Source: an uncultured Bacteroidota bacterium (GTDB taxonomy: Bacteria; Bacteroidota; Bacteroidia; Chitinophagales; Chitinophagaceae). From it: a stretch of DNA of 64,000 nt. Below the pieces are notes generated by a model that saw nothing but the letters and a program-made list of their open reading frames with translations, did not search any database and was not told the origin of the DNA. The stretch spans positions 62,001-126,000 of the forward strand of contig CAIPJS010000023.1 of assembly GCA_903865435.1 (NCBI GenBank), read 5' to 3'. The position numbers and the translations under genes are program-made. Shown piece after piece: positions 27,635 through 45,177 of this stretch; within the stretch, counting starts at the first letter, position 1, and each line of letters begins with the position of its first letter.

Positions 27635-28399
27635 ATGTCATTATTGCCCATCATCACTGTAAAGAATTTGGTAAAAAGCTATGGTGCATTCCATGCTGTC
27701 AAAGGAATCAATTTTGAGGTATTTGAAGGGGAGATTTTTGGCTTATTGGGTCCCAATGGTGCAGGTAAGTCAACTACTTTGGAAATTATAGAAACTTTGA
27801 GAGCCAAAACCAGTGGGGAAGTTTGGGTAGATGGATTTAATATAGATGAATCGCCTGAAGACATAAAAAAAATCATTGGCGTACAATTGCAAACAGCGGG
27901 ATTTTATCCCAATTTAAATTTAACCGAATTGATGCAATTGTTTATTGGTTTGTATCAAACCAATGTGGAGCCAATGGCATTGTTGAAGAAAGTAAATTTA
28001 GAGGATAAGGCAAAATCAAAATTCAAGGAATTAAGCGGGGGACAGAAACAACGTTTTTCTATTGCTACCACTTTAATCAATCAGCCCAAAATTATATTCT
28101 TAGATGAACCTACTACGGGCTTGGATCCTCAAGCACGCAGAAATTTATGGGATTTGATTAAAGAAATTAGAGACAACGGCACTACAGTAATTATTACGAC
28201 ACATTATATGGATGAAGCCGAAGTGCTATGCGATAGAGTGGCCATCATAGACAGTGGTGAAATTATTGTCATCAATACCCCCAATGAATTGATTGATCAA
28301 TTAGTGGCTTCTGGTTTTGAAAAAGTAAAAGAAGTAAAAAAAGCCAATTTGGAAGACGTGTTTATTCAAAAAACAGGAAAGGCTTGGAGAGAAGACTAA
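27635..28399 (+). CDS. ABC transporter ATP-binding protein
   Basis: A 254-residue ABC ATPase of the DrrA/CcmA-like type: Walker A GPNGAGKST, Q-loop QLQTAGF, signature LSGGQKQR, Walker B IIFLDEPTTGLD and the switch His in TTHYMDEAE. Such proteins power export or membrane-remodelling permeases. No permease gene is next to it, so its partner must be elsewhere. The next gene, 46 bases on in the same direction, is a YfiT-like enzyme and may be cotranscribed. Confidence 0.92.
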   Translation: MSLLPIITVKNLVKSYGAFHAVKGINFEVFEGEIFGLLGPNGAGKSTTLEIIETLRAKTSGEVWVDGFNIDESPEDIKKIIGVQLQTAGFYPNLNLTELMQLFIGLYQTNVEPMALLKKVNLEDKAKSKFKELSGGQKQRFSIATTLINQPKIIFLDEPTTGLDPQARRNLWDLIKEIRDNGTTVIITTHYMDEAEVLCDRVAIIDSGEIIVINTPNELIDQLVASGFEKVKEVKKANLEDVFIQKTGKAWRED

Positions 28400-34693: not shown

Positions 34694-34727
34694 TTTGGTG
34701 CAATTTAAGCCCATTTGGTTAACTTTG
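34694..34727 (+). promoter_or_regulatory. Promoter of ccmE, candidate leaderless start
   Basis: TTTG, 22 bases and TAACTTTG precede ccmE. The -7 element ends only four bases before the ATG, so transcription would begin at or next to the start codon. Confidence 0.55.
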
Positions 34728-34731
34728 CACT

Positions 34732-35142
34732 ATGAAGAAAACACATCTTATTTTATTAGTATTGATTGCAGCTGCAATTGTTGTTTTGGTTAGCTATACG
34801 GGCGATTTAAGTAGTTATGAAACCATTGGCTCTGCGAAGCAAAAAGAAGGCAAATTTGTGAACTTGATTGTGAAAATGGATAAGTCTAAAGCGGTGCAAT
34901 ATGACCCTGCCAAAGACCCCAATTTGTTGGAATTTAATGTGCAAGACAGTTTAGGTGGTAAAATTGCGGTGGTTTATCACAATACCATGCCAACTGATAT
35001 GGAAAAATCGGAAAGATTGGTATTGAAAGGTAAAGTACAAGGAGATCATTTTGAATGTTCTGCGATTGTGATGAAATGCCCTTCTAAATACAAGGACAAT
35101 CCCAATGCGTTGAAAGATCAACCCGTAACCATTAGCAATTAA
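34732..35142 (+). CDS. ccmE: Cytochrome c maturation protein CcmE (CxxxY variant)
   Basis: The 136-residue haem chaperone has an N-terminal membrane anchor (about 6-22) and an OB-fold periplasmic domain. Typical CcmE binds haem through a His in a HxxxY motif. Here the site reads KCPSKY, so Cys116 replaces the His, with Tyr120 kept (CxxxY), as known for some deltaproteobacterial and archaeal CcmE proteins. It precedes ccmF by 16 bases. No other ccm genes are nearby. Confidence 0.9.
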   Translation: MKKTHLILLVLIAAAIVVLVSYTGDLSSYETIGSAKQKEGKFVNLIVKMDKSKAVQYDPAKDPNLLEFNVQDSLGGKIAVVYHNTMPTDMEKSERLVLKGKVQGDHFECSAIVMKCPSKYKDNPNALKDQPVTISN

Positions 35143-35158
35143 TAATTTAATTAGGTAA

Positions 35159-37597
35159 ATGAATACAACAAAATTTATTGGTGAGCAATTGCTGCCTGGA
35201 CAAATAGGTTATTTTTTAACGATACTTAGTTTAGTGGCATCATTAATGGCCACATTTGCATTTGCAAAAGCTTTTTTTTCAAAAGAACTTTCGGTACAGA
35301 GTCAATGGAATAAACTGGCTAAAATTGCTTTTTATATCGAAGCGGTTTCGGTCTTTTCTTGTTTTATTGTTCTTTTCTATATTATTTCCAATCATTTGTT
35401 TGAATACAAATATGCCTACTTGCATAGTGATAAGAATTTACCCTTTCAATATTTATTAAGTTGTTTTTGGGAAGGGCAGGAAGGCAGTTTTTTACTTTGG
35501 AGTTTTTGGCATTGTGTATTAGGAATGTTTGTATTGACAAGATTAAAAAGATGGAACAACAATATCAATGGGATAATGATGGTATTGAATTTTGTTCAGT
35601 TTGTACTTGCCACCATGGTAGTGGGGTTATTTATTTTTGATGCTAAATTAGGCAGTAGTCCTTTTTTGTTGTTAAGAGAAGAAATGAATTGGCCCATACT
35701 TTCTCGTCCCGATTATTTACACTTAATTAAAGATGGTACAGGTTTAAATACATTATTACAGAATTATTGGATGGTGATTCATCCACCTATATTATTTTTA
35801 GGTTTTGCCTCTACGACGATTCCATTTGCATTTGCAGTGGTGGGCTTAATTAAAAAAGAACATGATTGGATGGACCTTTGTATGCCATGGGCAAGTTTTT
35901 CGGCAGGTATATTAGGATTGGGCATTATGATGGGTGCAGCTTGGGCTTATGAGAGTTTAACCTTTGGGGGTTATTGGGCCTGGGATCCGGTAGAAAATGC
36001 ATCATTAGTGCCATGGCTTACCTTGGTATCGGCCATACATGCTTGTATTATTTATAGAAAAACTGGAAGCAGTTTAAAAACTACTTATCTATTTTTTGGC
36101 TTAAGTTTTTTACTTGTTTTGTATTCTACTTTTTTAACAAGAAGTGGCATATTGGGAGATACTTCGGTACATGCTTTTACTGATTTAGGAATGAATACAC
36201 AATTATTAAGCTTCCTATTAATTTTTGTGCTTCCTTACTTTGCGTTATTTTCATTTAGGATGAAGGACATGAAAGCGCCACAAAAAGAGGATGAAATTAA
36301 AAGCAGAGAATTTTGGATGTTGGTAGGGTCTTTAATTTTATTTTTATCTGCCGTAGTCATCATAGCCATTACTTCTATTCCTGTTTTCAATAAATTGTTT
36401 GGAACCAAAATTGCGCCCCCTGAAGATGCGGCTTTTGCACACAATCAAGTGCAGGTATTTGTGGCCATCATCATTGGACTGCTCACGGCAGTTGGGCAGT
36501 ATTTAAAATTCAAAGGAACCACTGGAGATTATTTTAAAGAAAAAATAAAAATACCTTTAATCATTTCAGCAGCACTAAGTGCATTGGTATTTATTTATGT
36601 GGGTGTTAATTTTACAGAAAAGGGCATTGGTTTTACAGGGGCCCTCTACGTAGCATTATTTGCTTCCATCTTTACAGTGGTTGCCAATTTATTTTATTTT
36701 ATTTCTGTTCAAAAAGGAAAATTAAAATCTGCAGGAGCATCCATCGGACATATTGGTTTTGGAATGGTCTTAGTAGGTATATTAATTTCTTCTTCCAATA
36801 AGACTGTATTAAGTTGGAATACGACGGGCATCAGTCCATTGCGTATGGAATCAAAAAAGAATCCGGCCGGCAATCCAAAAGAAAATATTACTTTATTCGA
36901 AGGCATTGCCACAGACATGGGTAAGTACATGGTCACTTATGTAAGAGACACGTTTGATATTTTAGACAAAAGATTTTTTGAATTAAAATTCAAAGAGAAA
37001 AAAACCAAAGAGGAATTTTTCTTGTATCCAGATGTTTTAAAAAATAATAAAGGCATGGAAGGCTTTTCGGCCAATCCATCTTCAAAACATTATTTGCAAA
37101 AAGATATTTTTGTTTACGTTACTTCTTTTCAAGATCATTCTAAAGAAGATACCAGTAGTTTTATACCGCATCAAATTTCGATAGGGGATTCTATTTTTTA
37201 TAGCAATGGCTATATTAAATTAGATAAAGTTTTGGTGAATCCCAATGCCAATAGACCCGCAGGAACTAATGAATTGTTTTTGCAATTGTCTGTCACCTCT
37301 AAAGAAGGGTTAAAGTATCCATCCACACCTAGTATTACTTTGCAAGGCATGAATTTGCAGGCCAATTTAGATACCGTAAAAGCACAGAATTTGGTATTGA
37401 GTTTTAATAAAGTGGTAGATCAGAAAAAAGGAATATTAGAAATAGGGATCAAAGAATCGGCGTCTTTGACGAATTTAATTACTTTAAAAGTATACGAATT
37501 TCCCTATATCAATATTTTATGGACTGGGATCATTGTGATGGTATTTGGTTTCGGCTTGGCCACTTTTAACCGCGTTAAGAAATTTAAGGCCAAATAA
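35159..37597 (+). CDS. ccmF: Haem lyase CcmF
   Basis: An 812-residue polytopic membrane protein of the CcmF/NrfE family that attaches haem to apocytochrome c together with CcmE and CcmH. The tryptophan-rich haem-handling segment GGYWAWDPVENASLVPWL is at about residue 270, flanked by conserved histidines (WMVIHPPILFLGF and later VHAFT). A large periplasmic domain follows at about 550-770, before the last helix. It is longer than typical 640-residue CcmF, mainly in that domain. Cotranscribed with ccmE. Confidence 0.92.
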   Translation: MNTTKFIGEQLLPGQIGYFLTILSLVASLMATFAFAKAFFSKELSVQSQWNKLAKIAFYIEAVSVFSCFIVLFYIISNHLFEYKYAYLHSDKNLPFQYLLSCFWEGQEGSFLLWSFWHCVLGMFVLTRLKRWNNNINGIMMVLNFVQFVLATMVVGLFIFDAKLGSSPFLLLREEMNWPILSRPDYLHLIKDGTGLNTLLQNYWMVIHPPILFLGFASTTIPFAFAVVGLIKKEHDWMDLCMPWASFSAGILGLGIMMGAAWAYESLTFGGYWAWDPVENASLVPWLTLVSAIHACIIYRKTGSSLKTTYLFFGLSFLLVLYSTFLTRSGILGDTSVHAFTDLGMNTQLLSFLLIFVLPYFALFSFRMKDMKAPQKEDEIKSREFWMLVGSLILFLSAVVIIAITSIPVFNKLFGTKIAPPEDAAFAHNQVQVFVAIIIGLLTAVGQYLKFKGTTGDYFKEKIKIPLIISAALSALVFIYVGVNFTEKGIGFTGALYVALFASIFTVVANLFYFISVQKGKLKSAGASIGHIGFGMVLVGILISSSNKTVLSWNTTGISPLRMESKKNPAGNPKENITLFEGIATDMGKYMVTYVRDTFDILDKRFFELKFKEKKTKEEFFLYPDVLKNNKGMEGFSANPSSKHYLQKDIFVYVTSFQDHSKEDTSSFIPHQISIGDSIFYSNGYIKLDKVLVNPNANRPAGTNELFLQLSVTSKEGLKYPSTPSITLQGMNLQANLDTVKAQNLVLSFNKVVDQKKGILEIGIKESASLTNLITLKVYEFPYINILWTGIIVMVFGFGLATFNRVKKFKAK

Positions 37598-43278: not shown

Positions 43279-45177
43279 CTAATAATGCCAGCGCACAAAT
43301 GCCTCTATAGCAGCGTATTTGGTCAAACCAAGACGTGCATACAAGTCTGCAGTATGGGCATTTCTAATTTCAGCTCTTTGCCAAAATTCTCTAGCATCGG
43401 TACCTTGAAAGGGTACACTGTCCTTTTGTGATTGATGGATAAAAATACCAAATCGCTTTTTCATTACTTGATCAGGGCTCATAGGTACAGCCATTTCAAT
43501 TTCAGAAATGTCCCATTCCTGCCAAGCGCCTTTGTATAACCAAACCCAACAATCTTTAACCCAAACTTCACCTTCGGCTTTTAAACGGCGTAAACTTTCA
43601 AAAATAATATCCAAACAAACTTTATGCGTACCATGTGGATCGGCTAAGTCGCCAGCGCAAAATACTTGATGCGGTTGTATTTGTTTCAACAAATCCATTG
43701 TAATGCGAATGTCTAATTCACTCATAGGTTTCTTTTCGATGGCCCCTGTTTCATAAAAAGGCAAGTCCATGAAATGGTAATTGTCTTCTTTGATGCCTAC
43801 ATATCTACAAGTTGCTTTGGCTTCGCATCTTCTAATCAATCCTTTAATGGCTCTAATTTCAGCTGTATCTAAATGATCCGATTTTTTTCCAGCTAAAAAG
43901 GTTCTAGCAGTGCTTAAGATTTCTTCACTTTTTTTATTGTCTATGCCAAAAAGTTCTTCAAAGCCTACAGCAAAATCTAAGAAACGTGTTACAAATTCAT
44001 CTGTCACCGCAATATTACCACTGGTTTGATAGGCTACATGTACATCGTGCCCTTGTTCTTGCAAACGCATAAATGTACCACCCATACTAATAATGTCATC
44101 ATCGGGATGCGGTGAGAACAACAATACTTTTTTTGGATGCGGGGCACTGCGTTCTGGATGTGCAGGTATAATGGCATTGGGTTTACCTCCAGGCCATCCA
44201 GTAATGGTATCCCTAAGCATATAGAATACTTGTAAATTAATGTCGTAAACAGATTCTTTTATTACCAATAAATCAGATAAGCTGTTTTCTTTGTAATCAT
44301 CTGCAGTTAAGCTTAAAACAGTTTTGTCTAATTTTAAAGCCAAAGCAATGACTGCTTTTTTAATCATGATAGGTGTCCAGTCATTGGCGCCTGTTAACCA
44401 GGGCGCTTTGTTTCTAGTTAAATCTAAAGAAGCTATTTCATCAATTACAAAAGTACAATCATCATGATTTTGTAATACACTTGCTGGTAATTGTTCGGTC
44501 ACATCGCCTTCAATGGCTTTTGCAACAATAGAGGCTTTATCGCCCCAAGCAAGTAATACAATTTTTTTTGCTTTCATGATGCTACTAATACCCACTGTAA
44601 TGGCCAGTTTGGGCACTTTATTTAAATCATGAAACTCATAGGTATTGGCAAGTCTTGTTTGTTGATCTAAATGAATGACTCTTGTTTTTGAATGAAAACT
44701 AGAGCCTGGTTCATTAAATCCAATATGTCCATTTTTACCAATGCCTAAAATTTGCAAGTCAATACCCCCAAATTTTTCAATAGTTTGCTCGTAAATTAAA
44801 CAGCTTTCTTTTAAATTGTCTTTTGTCCATTCACCGTTAGGTAAATAAATATTTTTTGGATCAATATCTACTAAATTAAATAAATGACGATGCATAAAGC
44901 TCCAATAACTTTGGTAAGCCGATTTTTCAATTGGATAATATTCATCTAAATTAATAGTGACCACATTTTTAAAACTCAAACCTTCTTCTTTGTGCAAACG
45001 CACCAATTCTTTATACAATAAAATAGGGGTAGTGCCCGTAGCCATGCCCAATACACAAGGTAATTTTTTTGCTTGCTTCTCTTTAATAAGTGCAGCAATT
45101 TGAGCTGCTACTGCATTAGATCCTTCTGTTGCATTTTTATAAATAACAAGAGAAATTTTTTCAAATGATTCTAGCAT
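43279..45177 (-). CDS. nagB: Glucosamine-6-phosphate deaminase fused to a PIG-L deacetylase domain
   Basis: The 632-residue protein has an N-terminal NagB domain (about 1-260: TINLDEYYPI, LGIGKNGHIGFNEPG) that turns glucosamine-6-phosphate into fructose-6-phosphate and ammonia. A C-terminal PIG-L/LmbE deacetylase-like domain follows from about residue 345 (LLFSPHPDDDIISMGG, then DPHGTHKV supplying Zn ligands). Such fusions occur in Bacteroidota and could deacetylate and deaminate amino-sugar phosphates in turn; the second activity is inferred. It lies after pyk but beyond a terminator. Confidence 0.93.
   Translation of the reverse strand: MLESFEKISLVIYKNATEGSNAVAAQIAALIKEKQAKKLPCVLGMATGTTPILLYKELVRLHKEEGLSFKNVVTINLDEYYPIEKSAYQSYWSFMHRHLFNLVDIDPKNIYLPNGEWTKDNLKESCLIYEQTIEKFGGIDLQILGIGKNGHIGFNEPGSSFHSKTRVIHLDQQTRLANTYEFHDLNKVPKLAITVGISSIMKAKKIVLLAWGDKASIVAKAIEGDVTEQLPASVLQNHDDCTFVIDEIASLDLTRNKAPWLTGANDWTPIMIKKAVIALALKLDKTVLSLTADDYKENSLSDLLVIKESVYDINLQVFYMLRDTITGWPGGKPNAIIPAHPERSAPHPKKVLLFSPHPDDDIISMGGTFMRLQEQGHDVHVAYQTSGNIAVTDEFVTRFLDFAVGFEELFGIDNKKSEEILSTARTFLAGKKSDHLDTAEIRAIKGLIRRCEAKATCRYVGIKEDNYHFMDLPFYETGAIEKKPMSELDIRITMDLLKQIQPHQVFCAGDLADPHGTHKVCLDIIFESLRRLKAEGEVWVKDCWVWLYKGAWQEWDISEIEMAVPMSPDQVMKKRFGIFIHQSQKDSVPFQGTDAREFWQRAEIRNAHTADLYARLGLTKYAAIEAFVRWHY

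Follow-up and report, generated by a model that had tools for sequence, protein, structure and literature searches.

A cysteine-type CcmE of the System I* pathway in a Chitinophagaceae genome and its breadth among sampled Bacteroidota

The ccmE gene of an uncultured Chitinophagaceae bacterium encodes a CcmE of System I*, a type of cytochrome c maturation pathway that is already in print, in which the haem-binding position is occupied by a cysteine. Within the Bacteroidota genomes sampled here, this Cys type is the norm of the phylum and the only haem-binding type. The gene was analyzed in a window of 64,000 nucleotides (contig CAIPJS010000023.1, positions 62,001 to 126,000), where the gene for the haem lyase CcmF follows it directly. 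We consider it highly probable that the protein acts as haem chaperone in a System I* pathway, with haem bonded to Cys116 and passed to CcmF without CcmH. The features on which this reading is built are collected in Table 1.

Table 1. Positions of the ccmE and ccmF features in the window, and of the CcmC gene found elsewhere in the genome.
Feature	Coordinates	Strand	Basis or remark
ccmE, haem chaperone, 136 aa	34732..35142	+	Open frame; Pfam PF03100; OB-fold model
N-terminal helix of CcmE, residues 3-23, taken as membrane anchor	34738..34800	+	Model helix
Cys109 of CcmE, second cysteine, common in Chitinophagaceae CcmE	35056..35058	+	Alignment counts
Haem-attachment motif MKCPSKY	35071..35091	+	Translation; C, P, S, Y invariant in 164/164 rows
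Cys116, at E. coli His130 position	codon 35077..35079	+	Alignment with E. coli CcmE
Tyr120, at E. coli Tyr134 position	codon 35089..35091	+	Invariant in 164/164 rows; alignment
ccmF, haem lyase, 812 aa, directly 3' of ccmE	35159..37597	+	Cytochrom_C_asm 84.5 bits, CcmF_C 58 bits (Pfam)
CcmF His208 = E. coli His173 (P-His1)	35780..35782	+	30/30 own-class rows and E. coli
CcmF WWD motif GGYWAWDPVEN	35966..35998	+	W273, W275, D276 in 30/30 own-class rows and E. coli
CcmF His294 = E. coli His261 (TM-His1)	36038..36040	+	30/30 own-class rows and E. coli
CcmF His338 = E. coli His303 (P-His2)	36170..36172	+	30/30 own-class rows and E. coli
CcmF His531 = E. coli His491 (TM-His2)	36749..36751	+	30/30 own-class rows and E. 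coli
Periplasmic beta region of CcmF, enlarged and without Cys (residues 540-790, 251 aa)	36776..37528	+	Lengths; all-beta model
Own CcmC	L090:1265-1945		WWD motif eroded: WGSPWVGDPKQ, last Trp lost

Textbook CcmE carries a histidine at its haem-binding position. In the present protein, the motif lies within the segment CSAIVMKCPSKYKDNPN (translation of 35056-35106), and when its VMKCPSKY is set over LAKHDENY of E. coli, Cys116 stands in place of the haem-binding His130. The E. coli K-12 reference for this alignment was the protein from the annotated ccm operon. The HxxxY hallmark of System I is thus absent, with Cys116 where His is expected, and the CxxxY hallmark of System I* is present. An earlier note had placed KCPSKY at 35071-35091 with Cys116 and Tyr120, which translation confirms in both coordinates and numbering; its proposals that Cys replaces the haem-binding His and that the motif is of the CxxxY type agree with the E. 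coli alignment and with the System I* motif. The Tyr at the Tyr120/Tyr134 position is, according to the literature, an axial ligand. CcmE contains two cysteines in all, at positions 109 and 116. The family profile PF03100 matches residues 53-122 with 39.6 bits against a cut-off of 24.6, which places the protein within the CcmE family.

Upstream of the gene, we observed TAACTTTG at 34720-34731, which ends four bases 5' of the ccmE start codon and which we take to fit the Bacteroidota -7 promoter box (TAnnTTTG). With such a box this close to the start codon, the ccmE transcript may have almost no leader.

The CcmE model, built from 36 relatives, has a mean pLDDT of 88.3. It predicts the anchor helix (residues 3-23) and OB fold expected of the family, the latter with five strands (42-49, 66-71, 77-82, 96-103, and 106-114), and positions Cys116 shortly past the last strand. 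The top three Foldseek rows were all CcmE structures, with 8ce8 (CcmABCDE) first, followed by 1lm0 and 1j6q. In VIA-align, the CcmE entries 1j6q, 1sr3, 1lm0, 8ce8, and 2kct scored at Z 9.2-10.0, and many other OB folds tied with or exceeded them, up to Z 11.1. Since these other OB folds score as high as the CcmE entries, the fold alone identifies an OB protein, and the assignment to the CcmE family rests on sequence. Among PDB chains, the profile search ranked the Cys-type CcmE of D. vulgaris best (2kct, E 1.9e-5), with E. coli 1sr3 behind it (0.0015).

To follow the motif across the phylum, 296 genomes sampled from Bacteroidota were searched with the PF03100 profile, and 192 of them matched above the cut-off. 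CcmE was read from loci in 159 of these Pfam-positive genomes, and the remaining 33 were read separately. Aligning Bacteroidota CcmE, which the earlier note had suggested as a check, finds the Cys kept: a CcmE bearing CPS[K/R]Y is present in all 192 Pfam-positive genomes (of 296 searched), and no His-type CcmE was seen among the 192. Absence of the Cys from relatives, one of two outcomes named at the time as speaking against the reading, is thereby removed. The note's attribution of the motif to some non-enterobacterial CcmE proteins holds in that the type is known, but it is understated, as the phylum sample showed no haem-binding CcmE of any other type.

More specifically, the C, P, S, and Y columns are invariant in the 164 of 164 aligned rows that reach the motif, and the K position holds Lys in 162 rows and Arg in two. 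The alignment left out 17 of 181 rows, consisting of 15 motif-less OB proteins and two CcmE ends cut by the locus edge (L055, L056). Most other CcmE columns are variable, and within residues 21-128 only F68, D72, and G100 are otherwise invariant across the 164 rows. This invariance of the motif amid variable columns, with which the 33 further Pfam-positive genomes agree, argues that the motif is not due to chance. Individual genomes with irregular loci show the same motif. The Pfam search did not pick up G253, a genome of the organism's own family, yet a CPSKY-type CcmE adjoins CcmF there; in G268 the motif is readable although a frameshift or sequencing error splits CcmE into two overlapping frames (L224); and the CcmE of G119, cut by the contig end, still shows it. 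A further scan of named genomes, from which the best 80 of 571 loci were retained, required the KCPSKY pattern and therefore provides no test for a His form. Among these best 80, the nearest relatives are Chitinophagaceae, including Sediminibacterium, with 65-72% identity over the seven best rows. One record titled as an Alphaproteobacteria MAG (L347) holds a Chitinophagaceae-like CcmE at 49% identity on a long branch, perhaps from a misbinned or misnamed contig.

In a 2011 review (PMC3601427), Cys replaces His in System I* and CcmH is often absent, with about one third of the systems possessing it, and CPSKY is the majority variant motif (25/36 bacterial genomes). Section 8 of that review names delta-proteobacteria, Chloroflexi, and Firmicutes as hosts, and Bacteroidota are unnamed in that section. 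Judged by titles and the starts of abstracts, searches of an open-access library yielded no paper on Cys-type CcmE of Bacteroidota; the founding papers (Allen 2006, Goddard 2010), which possibly name such genomes, lie outside it. In the same library, CPSKY in the CcmE sense was found only in PMC3601427, and the extracts of PMC10663686, PMC5492636, PMC10470608, and PMC10117432 are silent on Cys-type CcmE in Bacteroidota.

We compared the protein with three known systems. Like its System I* counterpart in Desulfovibrio (D. desulfuricans; D. vulgaris 2kct), it combines CxxxY with an OB fold in a setting without CcmH (PMC3601427). It differs in belonging to another phylum, in having its ccm genes spread over two or more contigs, and in the extra Cys109. 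With the CcmE of Methanosarcina acetivorans (Cys120), it shares CxxxY and a machinery without CcmH (PMC9084895), and this organism, used as a control genome, was likewise matched for CcmE and not for CcmH. The archaeon has a split CcmF1/CcmF2 and no CcmD, whereas one long CcmF and a CcmD_alt are present here. The E. coli System I protein shares the family, the fold, and the Tyr four residues on, but differs by His130 in place of Cys116, by the presence of CcmH, for which there is no match here, and by a longer tail after the motif Tyr (25 residues versus 16).

CcmF, the product of the adjoining gene, has a single PDB match at E 0.01, the CcmF structure 6zmq (E 1e-36). In 78 of the 80 named loci (best 80 of 571), a CcmF match in the same orientation is located no more than 3 kb from ccmE, and the remaining two loci (L275, L318) are truncated where their contig ends. 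The histidines 173, 261, 303, and 491 of E. coli CcmF are haem ligands. All four have counterparts here, so that the protein carries the P-His, TM-His, and WWD elements of a System I* CcmF (terms as in PMC10663686).

The part of CcmF from His531 to the last helix spans 249-387 aa in 29 own-class relatives versus 117 in E. coli. Of 30 rows, our own included, 28 lack Cys in the enlarged beta region altogether, and the other two have one Cys each. Its model is all-beta (mean pLDDT 83.9), and Foldseek gave no match for it at E 0.001 or better. VIA-align superposed residues 666-771 on the beta domain of CcmF 6zmq (Z 10.7, rmsd 2.5, 95 aligned) and on CcsBA 7s9y (Z 9.4, rmsd 3.3, 92 aligned). Sequence alignment instead pairs the beta region of E. 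coli with CcmF residues from about 590 onward, leaving long gaps, and profile comparison of either half of the region was not significant (E about 0.2). Being free of Cys, the region cannot stand in for CcmH as a thiol reductant; we speculate that it could replace CcmH as a docking surface.

The System I* partners CcmB, CcmC, and CcmD_alt are encoded on contig C39 of the same genome, where the genes for CcmC and CcmD lie together and that for CcmB follows after about 3 kb on the opposite strand. Their Pfam scores all exceed the cut-offs (CcmB 41.1, CcmC as Cytochrom_C_asm 67.8, and the 52-aa CcmD_alt 42.4 bits), and CcmB and CcmC fall under the NCBIfam ccmB/ccmC cut-offs. CcmC keeps the equivalents of E. 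coli His60 and His184. Across 88 CcmC rows, which are rows and not genomes as some genomes occur twice, W114, W119, and His184 are kept in all 88 and His60 in 85 with three gaps, while only 28 rows retain the Trp corresponding to E. coli W125, and 29 have Glu instead of the Asp. Within the own class, this last Trp is kept in two and lost in 28 of 30 genomes. In five own-family CcmC proteins (L041, L042, L044, L045, L053), a different stretch, lacking the two later Trp, takes the place of the WWD segment. Erosion of the CcmC WWD motif was considered as a partner trait of Cys-type CcmE and ruled out: other families combine Cys-type CcmE with an intact WxWD (e.g., L003, L005, L019), so the traits are uncoupled.

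The CcmA profile TIGR01189 found 29 ABC matches in the genome, none above the cut-off of 131.6 and the best at 117 bits; this candidate is nearer to GldA (323 bits), though under the GldA cut-off of 402.6. There is no ABC ATPase in the 12 kb around the CcmB gene, and of the CcmB loci of near relatives, examined with 1.5 kb flanks, a single one (L040) encodes an ABC ATPase, at a distance of about 0.5 kb from CcmB. The lack of a CcmA above cut-off and the missing last Trp of the CcmC WWD motif were counted against the System I* reading. Within the window, an ABC ATPase at 27635-28399, about 6 kb from ccmE, is nearest to the DrrA profile (244.9 bits, under cut-off) and is also among the CcmA-profile matches under the CcmA cut-off. 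A single 632-aa frame at 43279-45177 looks, by eye, like a glucosamine-6-phosphate deaminase fused to a deacetylase domain of the LmbE/PIG-L type.

No match to CcmH (PF03918) was found in the genome, at variance with System I and in line with the usual absence of CcmH in System I*. In the phylum sample, PF03918 matched in seven of 296 genomes, two of them above cut-off, and in four of 14 control genomes, including E. coli. Read as protein, the matches L033 and L035 have zinc-ribbon-like starts followed by CxCGxCG segments, and L035 scores 36.7 bits for CcmH over residues 132-196 in addition to zinc-ribbon families. L032, L034, L036, and L038, known by their CxxC pairs only, have pairs that look like those of L033 and L035. 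L032-L036 and L038 come from six genomes, none of them of the own class, and may represent divergent forms of a CcmH-like protein. The own-class match L037 covers only profile positions 87-135 and has no CxxC. The genome has ten cytochrome c domain matches, and as its only two PF01578 genes are CcmF and CcmC, it has no System II CcsA.

From this set of components, we infer the following course. CcmC, together with the small CcmD, would give haem to CcmE in the periplasm, where Cys116, just past the last strand of the OB barrel, would bond it, most likely as a thioether to a haem vinyl, and Tyr120 could ligate the haem iron. Holo-CcmE would pass its haem to CcmF, which, by means of a membrane haem and its WWD/P-His site, would release the haem from the thiol and join it to CXXCH motifs without CcmH. 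Attachment through the thiol is the best reading because of experiments on homologues: the M. acetivorans C120A variant was produced but gave no haem stain (PMC9084895), and Desulfovibrio CcmE binds haem covalently (PMC3601427).

An unlikely alternative is that Cys116 merely ligates the haem iron and forms no covalent bond, which would make CcmE a non-covalent thiolate chaperone. The assay of the D. vulgaris protein of 2kct was reportedly performed without the CcmC partner, which counts against this alternative. This protein, the best profile match in the PDB, is reported to bind ferric haem non-covalently via its Cys (PMC3884852, where D. desulfuricans CcmE is cited as covalent), so covalent attachment may not hold in all cases, and a non-covalent carrier would sidestep the hard-to-break thioether, a problem raised in PMC3601427; set against this, the Cys-type CcmE of both M. 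acetivorans and Desulfovibrio are reported as covalent (PMC9084895, PMC3601427).

It is very unlikely that, beyond thiol attachment at Cys116 itself, Cys109 and Cys116 of Chitinophagaceae CcmE work jointly, for instance by forming a redox pair through which the haem thiol is protected or freed. The distribution of Cys109 lends this idea some support. The residue occurs in ten of 11 own-family genomes (absent in G253) and in G249 and G190 from another family of the same class. Of the 80 nearest named loci, which are mostly Chitinophagaceae (best 80 of 571; nearest by design of the scan), 68 have it as well. It is clustered on a quick tree of 93 CcmE rows, where its state changes five times, with at least three changes forced by supported branches, versus 20 with shuffled labels; resolution of the tree is poor, with 38 of its 89 inner branches open, and column 109 itself was included in building it. 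Across the 164 phylum rows, position 109 holds Ala in 147, Cys in 11, Ser in five, and Ile in one. These mostly small residues make packing the plain reading. Moreover, position 109 is modeled within the last strand (106-114), seven residues ahead of Cys116, where close contact is not obvious, and 12 of the 80 named loci (best 80 of 571) have no Cys109.

A second CcmE-like OB protein, ending where the haem motif would start, was seen after or overlapping CcmE in at least 15 of the 160 genomes read (L013, L024, L027, L113, L114, L117, L120, L121, L124, L132, L134, L135, L136, L137, L140), and two more genomes have such proteins away from CcmE (L354, L355). Their ends are mostly GHVHG...PYFHATQV-like; one copy has no Pfam match and three have no NCBIfam match. 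G062 and G294 each have a second PF03100 match (that of G294 under cut-off), and both second proteins end before the motif and carry no haem motif.

That the gene in the window could itself be a CcmE-like OB protein outside cytochrome c maturation, as the existence of these motif-less proteins beside CcmE in 15 sample genomes and elsewhere in two more might suggest, is scarcely conceivable, given the intact motif, the adjoining CcmF (as in 78 of the best 80 of 571 named loci, within 3 kb and in the same orientation), and the CcmB, CcmC, CcmD, and c-type cytochromes of the genome.

Going beyond the System I* assignment, the class might run an undescribed offshoot of that pathway, with a Cys-type CcmE (carrying Cys109 in most Chitinophagaceae), a CcmC without the last WWD Trp, a CcmB that has no dedicated CcmA, and a CcmF that, in the absence of CcmH, would take over the docking of the apocytochrome with its enlarged periplasmic beta domain free of Cys; we regard this as possible but doubtful.

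The value of the finding lies in its breadth, as the Cys form is the sole haem-binding form within the phylum sample. System I* poses the question of how a carrier can bind haem by a thiol and yet release it (PMC3601427), and the phylum offers many hosts, some of them cultured, in which to pursue it. The exclusive use of Cys in haem-binding CcmE together with the rarity of CcmH matches (7/296) in the sample suggests that the Cys form is commoner in bacteria than the few Desulfovibrio examples imply.
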